From a virus, in the IMG/VR virus record IMGVR_UViG_3300035698_007246, positions 64,001-128,000 of that record: a stretch of DNA of 64,000 bases; one strand, given 5' to 3'. Position 1 is the stretch's first letter; every line of letters starts with the position of its first letter. Below the pieces are notes generated by a model. It was given only the letters and a program-made list of their open reading frames with translations, ran no database searches and had not been told where the DNA came from. Shown one piece after another: positions 3,894 through 56,840 of the stretch. A program made the position numbers and the translations under genes.

Positions 3894-5152
3894 GAATAAA
3901 AAAGAAGGAAGAGTTAGAAAGAGATTTTGGTTCTGATTGGCGTGAAAGAGTGTTATGCTTGTGGACTCCGGGGATGGATGAGTTGTTTGGTCGGGTGTTG
4001 AGTGATAAACAAGAGGAAGAGGTTGAAGAGTTTTCCCCTGAGTATGATTCAATTAACATTGATGGATTCAATATCAGTACTGATATGATTACTGAAGATG
4101 AAGATGATGATGATGAAGAGGTCGTTGAAAAGGATTCATCTACTGATGACGATGAATCTGATGAAGAAGAATCTGATGAAGAAGAATATTGTGATTGTGC
4201 ACCATCATTAACAGCAGAAGAGATTGACATGCGTGTGCGTGATGTTGCTGAAGGAATCGAAAAGAAGTTTGTTGGTCGAGTAGACGAATATCTTGAGACG
4301 ATGTTTAAAGATTACGAAGACCAATATGTTGGTCAGATTGATAGAAGGGTAGAAAGTGCAATGCGAGACTATGTGAACCGACAAAAGAATCCTTGTGCTG
4401 GGATAGGGAATCTTTTACAAGGAGATATTGACGATTTAAAACATAGGCTATTAAAATTTGCTTCACACAGAAACTATGTTATGAGTGAAATAAATGATAT
4501 GATTGTTGAGTATGGATATGAGCCTGAATTAAATCATTTATGTGCTGAGTATTATGGTGTGTCTGATTATAAATCTAAATCATTAGACTCTCGCATTGCG
4601 TCAGTCATATTTGAGATGAGGGAAAAATCACTCAGAGAACAACAAGATGATGAAGAATTTTTTAATGTTATAAAAGGAGAAGACAAAATGACTGAAGGAA
4701 AAGCAACAACTGTGGATACGGCTCTACAGTTCGGGAAGAAGATTTGGAAAAAGAATGCTGCACTCAATATTTCTGCTGCAAAAAATGCTGCGAAACGTAA
4801 AGTTGGACAAATTGTCAACAATAAACTTGTTGATATGATTTTAAAGAATGTTCCCATGCCCCGATGGATTGCAGTTATAGGGGGGAAGAAAATATTAAGA
4901 CCACTTGTTAAATTGCTTGTGTCCAACAGTGGCGTTGTATCTATGGGGTTCCTTGAATTACAAGGATATAAATCAAGTAAAGCTGAATTTGTTTCAGAAG
5001 CAATGATGCTTGACGGATACGACAGTTTAGCTGACCTCATTAATACAGAAAATATTTCAGCTATTGTTGATAAAATAATAGACGCTGTTCCAGATACGTT
5101 ATTAACGGATGCGGGTTTTAATAAATCTAAATCTAAATCTGAAGATGAGTAG
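3884..5152 (+). CDS. acidic, helical protein with internal start; function unknown
   Basis: 422 residues from the ATG at 3884, which follows GGGGAG by five bases. Residues about 65-110 form an Asp/Glu/Ser-rich acidic tract, followed by a helical middle. From residue 269 on comes a basic helical C-terminal domain of 154 residues. That domain starts at a Met with a strong ribosome site inside the gene (AAAGGAGA at 4673-4680, ATG at 4688, in frame), so a shorter second product is likely. The last gene of the leading operon; a hairpin terminator follows. No family recognised. Confidence 0.7.
   Translation: MGLRIKKKEELERDFGSDWRERVLCLWTPGMDELFGRVLSDKQEEEVEEFSPEYDSINIDGFNISTDMITEDEDDDDEEVVEKDSSTDDDESDEEESDEEEYCDCAPSLTAEEIDMRVRDVAEGIEKKFVGRVDEYLETMFKDYEDQYVGQIDRRVESAMRDYVNRQKNPCAGIGNLLQGDIDDLKHRLLKFASHRNYVMSEINDMIVEYGYEPELNHLCAEYYGVSDYKSKSLDSRIASVIFEMREKSLREQQDDEEFFNVIKGEDKMTEGKATTVDTALQFGKKIWKKNAALNISAAKNAAKRKVGQIVNNKLVDMILKNVPMPRWIAVIGGKKILRPLVKLLVSNSGVVSMGFLELQGYKSSKAEFVSEAMMLDGYDSLADLINTENISAIVDKIIDAVPDTLLTDAGFNKSKSKSEDE
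4673..4690 (+). promoter_or_regulatory. internal ribosome binding site and ATG
   Basis: AAAGGAGA followed nine bases later by an ATG in frame with the surrounding gene. This matches the best ribosome sites in the window and is unlikely to be needed for the coding sequence, so it probably initiates a 154-residue C-terminal isoform ending at 5152. Confidence 0.5.
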
Positions 5153-39892: not shown

Positions 39893-40825
39893 TTACTCCT
39901 GGAAGTGTTTATTAAGAAGTTCGGTGACGAGTTCACCAAATTCATTTTGGAATGCTTCTCCATTTTCGTGGTATTGGAACATCCCCCAGCCTCTGACATC
40001 CAGTAGAAGGTTCTCATCACCATCGAATATCATTTGACCGTTAGGGTCGTAGTTGAAGGGTGATTTAATAAGTTTGTTAAGACCTGAGTCTTTAGAGTCA
40101 AAGTCATTTTCTTCATGACATCCCCCAGCTTCTATAATTTCGCCTTTTTTATTTTCATATTTGTTATGTGTAATTCGTTTACAGATGGAAGTTTCTGGAG
40201 CTGGTTCTCTATTATAAAGAGTTCTAAACGCTTTAATATGAGCCATTAGTCCGGCAGCAACGTAGACATAGACATATTCGCCATAGTCTTTGAAATTTCG
40301 AATATATTTAATTGGGACTAAATCAGTGAGCCAGACATCATTTTCAGATTTAAAGAATGGGAATTTATCTTTAGCCATTTCTTTGGCATTGATTTCGAGG
40401 ACAACGGGTTCACCGTGTCTGCTACCGACATCAATGGCAGTTTGGAAGTCATGGCTGAGGTGGACATGATTTCGTTGTTGTTTAGAGATTCCATCTTTTT
40501 TGATAGAGTCTATAAATTTTATGGCAGTTCCGTGGTATAGAGTGTCAGGTGGTTTAATGGGTTTGAGACCTAAGTTGACATTAATGGAATGACCTTGATT
40601 TGCACGAATACGTTTTTTATCTGTACTGAATATAAATCGTTTTTTATTGTTGTCTTTAACGATGTGTTTTAGTGTAGAAATGCCAATGACTATATTATGG
40701 TCATTCATTTTTTTAATTAGTTCTTGAGTATTAGCCCATCCACCATCATCAAGTTTGAGTCCAATGGTATCTGGTTTATGTCTGAGGACAAGGCTCAGGA
40801 ACATGCTTAGTTTTTTATCTTTCAT
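39893..40825 (-). CDS. kptA: Tpt1/KptA-like RNA 2'-phosphotransferase with C-terminal extension
   Basis: 310 residues; AAAGGTGG before ATG 40825. Residues 1-180 carry the Tpt1/KptA signatures in order: LRHKPD (14-19), GW (29-30), RANQGHS (74-80), YHGT (97-100), HVHLS (120-124), GSRHG (134-138) and WLTD (165-168). Known reaction: NAD-dependent removal of a 2'-phosphate from RNA splice junctions, giving ADP-ribose 1'',2''-cyclic phosphate. Bacterial KptA is about 180-220 residues; the extra 130 residues include a DVRGWG motif near 277 and are of unknown function. An RtcB ligase gene lies 10 kb away on the same strand. Confidence 0.85.
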   Translation of the reverse strand: MKDKKLSMFLSLVLRHKPDTIGLKLDDGGWANTQELIKKMNDHNIVIGISTLKHIVKDNNKKRFIFSTDKKRIRANQGHSINVNLGLKPIKPPDTLYHGTAIKFIDSIKKDGISKQQRNHVHLSHDFQTAIDVGSRHGEPVVLEINAKEMAKDKFPFFKSENDVWLTDLVPIKYIRNFKDYGEYVYVYVAAGLMAHIKAFRTLYNREPAPETSICKRITHNKYENKKGEIIEAGGCHEENDFDSKDSGLNKLIKSPFNYDPNGQMIFDGDENLLLDVRGWGMFQYHENGEAFQNEFGELVTELLNKHFQE

Positions 40826-40883
40826 CGTCACCACCTTTGATTTTTTTAATCATATTATTTATTAAACCAAATATTACAAACAT
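40815..40883 (-). CDS. possible tiny coupled peptide
   Basis: 22 residues; ATG overlaps the stop of the upstream gene (TAATG) with GGTGG before it, and its end overlaps the Tpt1-like start. Hydrophobic then basic. Could be spurious. Confidence 0.3.
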   Translation of the reverse strand: MFVIFGLINNMIKKIKGGDDER

Positions 40884-50400: not shown

Positions 50401-51612
50401 CTATCCCTTTATCACACCAATTTGTGAAACAATTTCAACAACTTCAACTAAATCCTTTTCATTTTCAATCACCTGAGCGATGTCCTTATAAGCAGGACCG
50501 GATTCATCAAGTATTTTTGAAATATCTGGAGTTGAAACTTCAATTCCCTTTTTCTTAAATCGAGCAACCATATCATCAATGTTAAAAGTTTTACGAGCGT
50601 TAGTTCTTGACATCACTCGACCAGCACCATGACTTGCAGAATCAAAACTATCTTTATTACCAAGACCTTTGACAATATAAGATTGTGTTTCCATTGACCC
50701 CGGAATAATTCCCATATCACCTTCACGTGCTCGAATAGCACCTTTACGATGTATCATCACATTTTCACCAAAATGGTTTTCCGTTGCGGCGTAATTGTGA
50801 TGGGCATTTACTTCCATAGACACAGTTTTTGATATATGGCCATAATGTTTTTCAATTAGATTGAAAACAAGGCTTTTAAATCTTTCCATCATCACATATC
50901 TATTTTGTTTTGCAAAATCAAGTGCAAAATTCATAGCGGTGACATAATCTTGACCTTCTTGAGTATCCATTGGTAGAAATGCTAATTCCCATGACAGTGG
51001 AACCTTAGACCAATATTTTGCATTCAAGTCTTCAGCAAGTTTATTAAAATGTCCACAGACTTTGTATCCAAGATTACGACTACCAGAGTGCAACATAATA
51101 CATAAATTCCCTTTAGAATTTTTCTGCAATTCGATAAAATGGTTTCCTCCACCGAGGGTTCCAAGACTACACCGAGCAACATCAAGATTTTCTTGAATTA
51201 TATCCAATTCAGGTGCTGAATTAAATCCAACCCATTCTTGTTGAGTTTTATGTCTTCCAAATCCAACTGGAATAACTCTACGAGCACTATCAAGTACACA
51301 TTTTACAATACTTCTATTTTGAGTATCACAATTATATGTTAATATCGAAACTGGGATATTAGTTTCAAGAAAAGCCATCCCACATCCAATGTCAACACCC
51401 ACAGCATTTGGAATAACCACATCTTTTGTAGCAATAACACCACCAATTGGCATTCCATACCCTTGATGACCATCAGGCATTATTGACACATGTTTAAATA
51501 TTGCAGGATGATTAGCTAAATTCATAGCTTGGTCAATCGCACCTTGCTCTAAATCAGTTGCCCAATTTTTAATTGGTAACCGTTGTTTATCGTTATCATA
51601 TATTACATTCAT
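50401..51612 (-). CDS. rtcB: RtcB RNA ligase
   Basis: 403 residues, normal for RtcB. Motifs in order: PDGHQGYGMPIGGV (46-59), DIGCGM (74-79), GGGNHF (154-159), HSGSRNLG (175-182), HHNYA (271-275), HRKGA (288-292) and SHGAGR (327-332); His328 fits the guanylylated histidine. Known reaction: GTP- and Mn-dependent joining of 2',3'-cyclic phosphate or 3'-phosphate ends to 5'-OH ends, as in tRNA repair and splicing. GGAGTAATTA precedes the ATG. With a Tpt1-like gene and a Ro60-like gene on the same strand it points to phage-encoded RNA repair. Confidence 0.95.
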   Translation of the reverse strand: MNVIYDNDKQRLPIKNWATDLEQGAIDQAMNLANHPAIFKHVSIMPDGHQGYGMPIGGVIATKDVVIPNAVGVDIGCGMAFLETNIPVSILTYNCDTQNRSIVKCVLDSARRVIPVGFGRHKTQQEWVGFNSAPELDIIQENLDVARCSLGTLGGGNHFIELQKNSKGNLCIMLHSGSRNLGYKVCGHFNKLAEDLNAKYWSKVPLSWELAFLPMDTQEGQDYVTAMNFALDFAKQNRYVMMERFKSLVFNLIEKHYGHISKTVSMEVNAHHNYAATENHFGENVMIHRKGAIRAREGDMGIIPGSMETQSYIVKGLGNKDSFDSASHGAGRVMSRTNARKTFNIDDMVARFKKKGIEVSTPDISKILDESGPAYKDIAQVIENEKDLVEVVEIVSQIGVIKG

Positions 51613-55376: not shown

Positions 55377-56840
55377 TTATAAACATCCTTTTAATATATG
55401 TGCTATAACATCAACAGTCCAACCATTACCTAACATCTTATACCGTTGACTATTACTCACAAATGTAATATTCTCCATTTTTAAACCCGATAATTCCACT
55501 TTCAATAAGTTGTGACGCAATTTGTTCAAGTTGTCTATGGATAATTGAATGTTCACTTTGTCCATTACAAATGAAAAGATTTTCAATTCTATTATCAATT
55601 TTATCAAGATTGATATGATGAACTTTTTCATTACTTGTAAGTTGTCGTCCAATACAATCTTCCATAACTTTCCTGTGAACGTCTTTACCATTAATACGTT
55701 TTCTGTATCCACGACTTCCCAATTTATTTTTTTGATTATCTGAGAATAATGGGTCTCTGTGTCGTCTCCAATTTTGGTAATGTTTATTACACATTCCTCT
55801 TGCACCGCCACCCTTTTCTCCAATTTTTCTATCACAATACTTACATTTTTGTTCTGATTGAAATAGTTTTTTAGGTAATTCAACTGAACCATGTCGTTCA
55901 TATCGTTTATAATGTAAAGAACAGAGTTCTCCATATTTATGTGTTGTTGCTTGTCTATTACATCCGCTAACACTACATTTTTGTTTTTGCATAAAAATAC
56001 TCCATTGTTATTTATTTCCTGTGTAATACACATAAAGTATTTATACAAATTCGAAATTTTAGTATAATCATCTGGTACTGTCTGTAATCTTTCACATTCA
56101 ATTGGTGTTAATTTTCGCCACTCAACACCATCTAATATAGCATAATTATATGGGGTTGTGACACGTAATATATTAAATTTATCTTTAAAATTAAAACCCC
56201 CTTTATTGAAACCATGTGGCGTTTCAAAAACTAACTGCCGTCTACATCTATCAAAATATGATTTTAAATCCCCACCTTTAAAATAATGTGCATCAACACA
56301 ATAACTTTTATCTCTATCAACATATCCATGTTCTATAATATTTGTTAATAATACTCCTTTATCTTCAGGTTGTTTAATGTTAGGAATATTAGTCCAATAA
56401 TATCTAACACGATTTTGTGCTGATACTAATACACTATTAATACAAATTGGTTCAACACCCAGATGTTCTGATATAATATCTAAATATTCTTTCTTCATTC
56501 TTACATTCTCGAATAAAAAATATTTAGGTCTACATTCTTTTAGTAATCGGACAAACTCAAAAAACAATTTTGACCGTGGGTCATCAAATGCTAATTGTTT
56601 GCCAGCAAAACTAAATCCTTGACATGGACTTCCCCCAACAAGTAAATCAATCGGTTCTAAATTTTCAGCTCGTACATTACAAACATCACCAAGTTGTATA
56701 GTATCTGGGTAATTATAATCATTTACTTGGTTGGCATATTTATCAATTTCACTACTATAACGTTTATTAACCTTAATACCTAATCGGTCTAAAACTATCC
56801 AGATACATCCCATACCATTAAAAGTACTCAACACATTCAT
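55377..56840 (-). CDS. DNA cytosine-5 methyltransferase interrupted by a nested HNH gene
   Basis: 487 residues. N-terminal part has SAM-binding motif I (FNGMGC, 7-12), the catalytic SPCQG (71-75, Cys73), ENV (111-113) and QNRVR (142-146). The target-recognition region leads to RKLTPIECERLQTVPDDYTK at about 242-261. The final motifs, SNSQRYKMLGNGW and VDVIAHIL, come only at residue 463 onward, about 200 residues later than expected. The extra 597 bases contain an HNH endonuclease gene in another frame, yet the methyltransferase frame stays open right across. Methyltransferases with a large insert may still fold; activity is uncertain. Upstream partner restriction enzyme: none seen. Confidence 0.8.
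   Translation of the reverse strand: MNVLSTFNGMGCIWIVLDRLGIKVNKRYSSEIDKYANQVNDYNYPDTIQLGDVCNVRAENLEPIDLLVGGSPCQGFSFAGKQLAFDDPRSKLFFEFVRLLKECRPKYFLFENVRMKKEYLDIISEHLGVEPICINSVLVSAQNRVRYYWTNIPNIKQPEDKGVLLTNIIEHGYVDRDKSYCVDAHYFKGGDLKSYFDRCRRQLVFETPHGFNKGGFNFKDKFNILRVTTPYNYAILDGVEWRKLTPIECERLQTVPDDYTKISNLYKYFMCITQEINNNGVFLCKNKNVVLADVIDKQQHINMENSVLYIINDMNDMVQLNYLKNYFNQNKNVSIVIEKLEKRVAVQEECVINITKIGDDTETHYSQIIKKINWEVVDTENVLMVKTFTGKLWKIVLDDNLQVMKKFIISILIKLIIELKIFSFVMDKVNIQLSIDNLNKLRHNLLKVELSGLKMENITFVSNSQRYKMLGNGWTVDVIAHILKGCL
55453..55992 (-). CDS. HNH homing endonuclease nested in the methyltransferase gene
   Basis: 179 residues. Two N-terminal zinc-knuckle-like units (CSVSGCNRQA..., CKYCDRKIG), then an HNH_3-type domain: VHRKVMEDCIGR, VHHINLDKIDNRIENLFICN, SEHSIIHRQ (about 106-155). 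ATG 55992 follows GGAG, and a TATAAATA box lies 46 bases upstream. Its final codons are shared with the resuming methyltransferase sequence (TGT GAG TAA over GTGAGTAAT). Group I-intron-free insertions of this kind are known for phage homing endonucleases. Confidence 0.8.
   Translation of the reverse strand: MQKQKCSVSGCNRQATTHKYGELCSLHYKRYERHGSVELPKKLFQSEQKCKYCDRKIGEKGGGARGMCNKHYQNWRRHRDPLFSDNQKNKLGSRGYRKRINGKDVHRKVMEDCIGRQLTSNEKVHHINLDKIDNRIENLFICNGQSEHSIIHRQLEQIASQLIESGIIGFKNGEYYICE
56038..56045 (-). promoter_or_regulatory. possible late-type promoter for the nested HNH gene
   Basis: Minus-strand GAATTTGTATAAATACTTTATG at the left edge of the inserted segment, matching the GAATTTGTATAAATA at 24551 upstream of the decoration-like gene. 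Confidence 0.45.

Follow-up and report, generated by a model that had tools for sequence, protein, structure and literature searches.

An out-of-frame HNH endonuclease gene within a phage C5-cytosine methyltransferase gene whose reading frame stays open

A C5-cytosine DNA methyltransferase (MTase) gene in a 224-kb jumbo phage genome contains a complete HNH endonuclease gene in a different frame, and the MTase frame runs through the HNH gene without a stop codon. The window that we analyzed is a 64,000-nt stretch (positions 64,001 to 128,000 of IMG/VR virus record IMGVR_UViG_3300035698_007246); the source record comprises 223,879 bases, in which both genes are single copy. Probably, the locus is a nonsplicing homing element in which the choice of synonymous codons is limited in such a way that translation of the MTase can run on through the HNH gene. 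Two open frames, an exact insertion in an 11-residue spacer, avoidance of stop codons beyond chance, recurrence of the arrangement in diverged relatives, and the lack of a detectable intron or intein are observed directly. We infer that the HNH protein cleaves DNA and homes, that the 487-residue protein is translated, and that it is active as an MTase.

The MTase frame matches the Pfam family DNA_methylase at 3e-38 and contains motifs I, IV (PCQ), VI (ENV), VIII (QNRxRYYW), IX, and X (QRYKMLGNGW), while the HNH open reading frame (ORF) matches HNH_3 at 2e-7. Position 1 of each HNH codon in the window corresponds to position 3 of a host codon. Several elements of the first-pass annotation, which had proposed an HNH gene inside a cytosine methyltransferase with an open host frame, its own ribosome site, and last codons shared with the MTase, are borne out: the 487-codon frame has no stop across the 179-codon ORF, the GGAG is present, and the HNH TAA is formed inside the host codons GTG-AGT-AAT (V461-S-N). 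The HNH stop is thus borrowed from the target sequence, as it is in relatives L073 and L074 (TCTAAC). The features are listed in Table 1, in which site A denotes the loop between motifs IX and X of C5 MTases.

Table 1. Features of the nested MTase and HNH genes, in window coordinates
Feature	Position	Strand	Basis
C5-cytosine DNA methyltransferase (MTase) frame, 487 codons, stop-free across the insert	55377..56840	-	Pfam PF00145 and motifs
MTase N-terminal part, host codons 1-262, motifs I-IX	56055..56840	-	alignment to uninterrupted relatives
Net insert, 198 codons/594 nt, edges +/- a few codons	55461..56054	-	invariant 11-residue IX-X spacer
HNH endonuclease gene, 179 codons, two Cys/His zinc-binding-like modules followed by HNH_3 domain	55453..55992	-	
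MTase C-terminal part, host codons 461-487 (motif X) and stop	55377..55460	-	conserved in all site-A members
HNH stop codon TAA within host codons V461-S462-N463	55453..55455	-	
Shine-Dalgarno-like GGAG, 7 nt 5' of the HNH ATG	56000..56003	-	seen in sequence
TATAAATA, fits T4-type late promoter consensus (weak evidence)	56038..56045	-	
Predicted RNA hairpin, TATAAATA arm paired with GGAG and AUG of the HNH gene	55986..56049	-	

The size of the insert follows from the spacer between motifs IX (ECERLQTVPD) and X (YKMLGNG). This spacer is exactly 11 residues long in every uninterrupted relative in which both motifs are readable and 209 residues long in the window, so the net insert is 198 codons. 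The previously reported distance of 597 bases (199 codons) correctly describes the separation of two (I/V)SN stretches but not the net insert, which is 594 nt when measured against the 11-residue spacer. Relatives with a natural region of 200 residues at this place had been named as a possible refutation; the readable close relatives all have 11 residues, favoring insertion. The (I/V)SN stretches themselves had been interpreted as a target duplicated or converted by homing. The repeat exists in protein but not in DNA (ATTTCGAAT versus GTGAGTAAT): across the insert junctions there is no exact DNA repeat of >7 nt, and the longest (7 nt) lies elsewhere than (I/V)SN. Because the match is confined to protein and its left-hand copy is missing in other members, it is poor evidence of target duplication, and we rejected this interpretation.

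Seven relatives of the window carry an insert at site A (L008, L009, L010, L073, L074, L095, and L126). Their HNH proteins are ∼36 to 57% identical to that of the window, and all share the same loop, the same phase (phase 2), an open host frame, and a motif X that follows the insert; this recurrence strengthens the central claim of an HNH gene inserted in a C5 MTase with an open frame and no detectable intron. L008, L009, and L010 are the closest HNH relatives in IMG/VR, and L095 comes from a bacterial contig. A second site, B, just after motif VIII of C5 MTases, is filled in L081, L082, L096, L097, L098, and Omegavirus L001. In these members the HNH start lies at the junction, and codons of a conserved Arg-rich motif resemble Shine-Dalgarno sequences (aaggagg in L096, aggagg in L001, and aagaggg in L098) and could serve as such in some of them. 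Further nested examples are the published ShiLan element (L003, L116, and L117) and an N6/N4 MTase case (L104). Free-standing HNH relatives include L078, which lies directly downstream of a complete C5 MTase gene.

Some additional hidden HNH genes belong to other HNH lineages and lie in the other phase. The MTase of L081, filled after motif VIII, has a second hidden HNH gene of another subfamily in its IX-X loop (4122-4583), and L147 (2169-3788) has one downstream of motif VIII in a C5 MTase from a different family. A single universal phase, which at first held in 16/16 cases, was rejected on the strength of these two loci. In L098 (2192-5431), a single C5 MTase ORF contains two HNH sequences, one out of frame following motif VIII and the other in frame within the IX-X loop; therefore, this loop tolerates large inserts. 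Deep branches of the HNH tree are not resolved, and the tree does not settle the number of independent origins. One scenario, which we offer tentatively and which is somewhat less than an even bet, is that the two MTase hotspots were entered repeatedly by unrelated HNH lineages, converging on a stop-free host frame in either phase and drawing their start, Shine-Dalgarno, and stop signals from codons of the host gene. The shadow peptide would then have been selected as a tolerated or useful MTase loop, so that much of this DNA would code for two selected proteins.

Could the HNH gene instead be carried by a self-splicing intron of group I, group II, or another type? HNH genes of the window's family do occur in group I introns, and an intron was suspected by the annotators of Omegavirus phages, where the HNH-containing C5 MTase of Schatzie and Bombitas is annotated “unable to determine intron boundaries.” As the first-pass annotation had anticipated, no intron was found by Rfam in the window (E ≤ 10), nor was there a match in the nested loci (E ≤ 1); the search covered the window and 12 related loci, and only the control, thyX of Alteromonas phage AD45 (L004), was positive, with a group I intron at 4.9e-27. 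The HNH ORF occupies 540 of the 594 nt, leaving scant room for an intron core. An intron also does not need an open, in-register host frame, and the HNH relative in the thyX intron has 11 host-phase stops. We therefore consider an intron unlikely. In L004 (2237-2943), the HNH gene overlaps the group I intron core. An intein finds no support in the window either: the host-frame translation of the insert has no match to any Pfam family, intein families included, and inspection of the edges (K-ISNLYK ... NITF-VSN) revealed none of the splice residues (Cys/Ser start, His-Asn end). Among the other loci, a T4-like portal protein (L093, 1894-4701) has an HNH-bearing intein.

Two further alternatives would separate the products differently, and we regard both as very improbable. 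The N-terminal part of the MTase and a separately initiated motif X peptide could assemble into a split enzyme, as happens with Aeh1 NrdA interrupted by mobE; split enzymes are known (PMC2988022), and motif X begins close to a GTG (V461) and an ATG. Splitting, however, needs neither an open frame nor register, the motif X peptide would be only 27 residues long, and its GGAG is weak and badly spaced. Alternatively, the HNH domain could be made as an MTase-HNH fusion via programmed frameshifting rather than as a protein of its own, given that most members are in one phase from which a single frameshift reaches HNH. This explanation does not demand an open host frame, the window HNH has its own ATG and GGAG, and the second insert of L081 and that of L147 are in the other phase.

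To compare the open host frame with chance, we fixed the HNH protein and drew synonymous codons by the window's own usage in 20,000 reshuffles. The host frame has 0 stops versus 7.7 expected, at a P value of ≤1.5e-4 that excludes the extra 1-in-3 chance of the insert staying in register; the other frame over the window HNH has 33 stops versus 27 expected. A stop-free methyltransferase frame had been called improbable, and these numbers agree. Each of 15 nested genes has 0 host-frame stops (3.2 to 11.4 expected), as do three further nested genes (6 to 11 expected). Thus, 18/18 distinct nested insertions, a class first recognized by its open frame and checked for its host gene later, have zero host-frame stops, and all those found here sit in DNA MTases. 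In contrast, 13 nonnested relatives have 7 to 25 stops in the corresponding frame, about as many as expected. Among the additional relatives that we scanned, stops interrupt both frames over the HNH gene in almost every case. These results support the view that the host frame is held open by more than chance. That the insertion broke the MTase and the open frame is luck in one case is extremely improbable: chance has modest odds for GC-rich members alone (P of ∼0.02 for L081 at site B and for L003), and against it stand the window P value, the stop-free frames of the nested set where other relatives have stops, and the conservation of motif X past the insert even though motif X lacks an evident start signal of its own.

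Codon usage is consistent with a constraint on both frames. At conserved HNH residues, codon identity exceeds that of reshuffles in the nested sets (855 versus 757 ± 27 and 621 versus 458 ± 18), and there is no excess in a free control set that is more diverged than the nested sets (253 versus 271 ± 12). Host-frame amino acid similarity is in excess at both sites (z of 4.6 and 13.7), which is only suggestive, since the control frame shows an excess as well (z of 2.1 and 9.7). For this reason, the synonymous conservation is not attributable to host-frame protein selection alone, and we did not accept such selection as established. Taken together, the data fit selection on both proteins but do not prove it, as the sets differ in divergence.

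Under the nonsplicing homing model, the conserved DNA that joins MTase motifs IX and X would have received a copy of an HNH gene equipped with a ribosome site; the presumed route is that empty alleles were cut and then repaired with the filled copy as template. The element would have no splicing device. Synonymous codon choice would instead spare the host gene by keeping its frame stop-free and in register, so that ribosomes translating the MTase would pass through the insert and continue to motif X. In the MTase protein, the ∼198 added residues would be a disordered loop, and the HNH protein would be made separately by internal initiation (GGAG, ATG), ending on the TAA formed by host codons.

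Structure prediction is compatible with such a loop. In the AlphaFold model of the full MTase protein, the core has a pLDDT of ∼90, the insert (residues 264 to 459) of 28 to 50, and motif X of 76 to 91. The predicted core matches DNMT3 structures; in PDB sequence and fold searches, the MTase is nearer to eukaryotic DNMT3 than to M.HhaI. The HNH protein alone is predicted to fold at a pLDDT of 80; its model had no match among PDB structures under an E value of 0.001, and the only match of its sequence profile in the PDB was to a zinc ribbon in a topoisomerase.

The predicted hairpin at the HNH start has a free energy of −13.3 kcal/mol (z of −1.9), and 8 of 200 shuffles are as good. Stronger hairpins are found at the same place in L074 and L126 (z of −5.2 and −3.8) and none in four other site-A members examined. 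A box of its own, TATAAATA, had also been ascribed to the HNH gene. This octamer shows no overall enrichment in the window (22 occurrences versus 17 expected), but its frequency immediately upstream of same-strand starts is modestly raised (8/22 versus 14% for octamers of the same composition; P = 0.007). In T4 I-TevI and Aeh1 mobE, such hairpins block early translation, and a late promoter frees the site (PMC2988022). By analogy, control of the window HNH gene by a hairpin or late promoter is plausible.

No near-identical empty allele of the window phage gene was found, and the mobility of the window element is therefore argued by analogy. At site B, Omegavirus Schatzie (L001) and Porcelain (L125) are 98.5% identical to the right of the insert and diverged to its left, with a recombination breakpoint at the insert edge. 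Since Porcelain is a recombinant, we did not accept it as a clean empty counterpart of the Omegavirus insert. Both phages encode the C-terminal part of the MTase in an ORF of its own.

This kind of element was described in 2025 (PMC11855218). The name ShiLan domain refers to an HNH that lies hidden, out of frame, within DNA methylases of mycobacteriophages (Arsenault et al. 2025, PMC11855218; Gosselin et al. 2023, PMC9957025) with a disjunct distribution (PMC11855218, PMC9957025); the 2025 report was based on DPPY-type mycobacteriophage methylases and one divergent methylase (PMC11855218). Like ShiLan, the window insert is in frame in a DNA methylase gene, has zero host-frame stops and no intron or intein features, encodes, in the same relative phase, a zinc-finger HNH protein that ends at a TAA stop at the right edge, and is predicted to form a loop. 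Unlike ShiLan, it occupies the IX-X loop of a C5 cytosine MTase rather than a DPPY-type methylase, its HNH gene uses ATG and GGAG rather than a GTG without a ribosome site, and its phage is a 224-kb non-actinophage; sequence relatedness is confined to the HNH region. The window element is therefore a known kind in a new form, set apart by the family of its host gene, its insertion site, its ribosome site, and the type of phage. To the description of this kind, our analysis contributes the chance test, a diverged same-site series, another C5 site, members in the other phase, and the use of host codons as signals for start and stop.

Other systems resemble the window in part. Omegavirus Schatzie and Bombitas also have an out-of-frame HNH ORF in a C5 MTase with an open host frame and the same phase, but their insert follows motif VIII, the N-terminal DNA-binding part is Myb/HTH-like and not of the zinc type, and the host MTase is split again further downstream. 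Aeh1 mobE in nrdA and T4 mobA in gene 60 are likewise HNH homing endonuclease genes in a phage gene without an intron (PMC2988022); these free-standing genes interrupt the frame of the host gene, whose product is then split (PMC2988022), whereas the window frame continues. The AD45 thyX intron has a related HNH domain in a phage gene, but its insert has a ribozyme core and host-frame stops and is removed by splicing.

Overprinting would thus be a third solution, besides introns and inteins, that lets a homing endonuclease gene occupy a coding gene. With the present loci, the kind also covers C5 MTases from other phages and from bacterial and uncultured-genome contigs, in both phases, and provides natural cases of long same-strand dual coding. 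It also carries a warning for annotation, since an MTase with an odd 200-residue insert may hide a nuclease gene. The neighborhood of the window MTase encodes RNA repair functions, a Tpt1/KptA 2'-phosphotransferase and an RtcB ligase (window positions 39893-40834 and 50401-51612, respectively, both on the minus strand).
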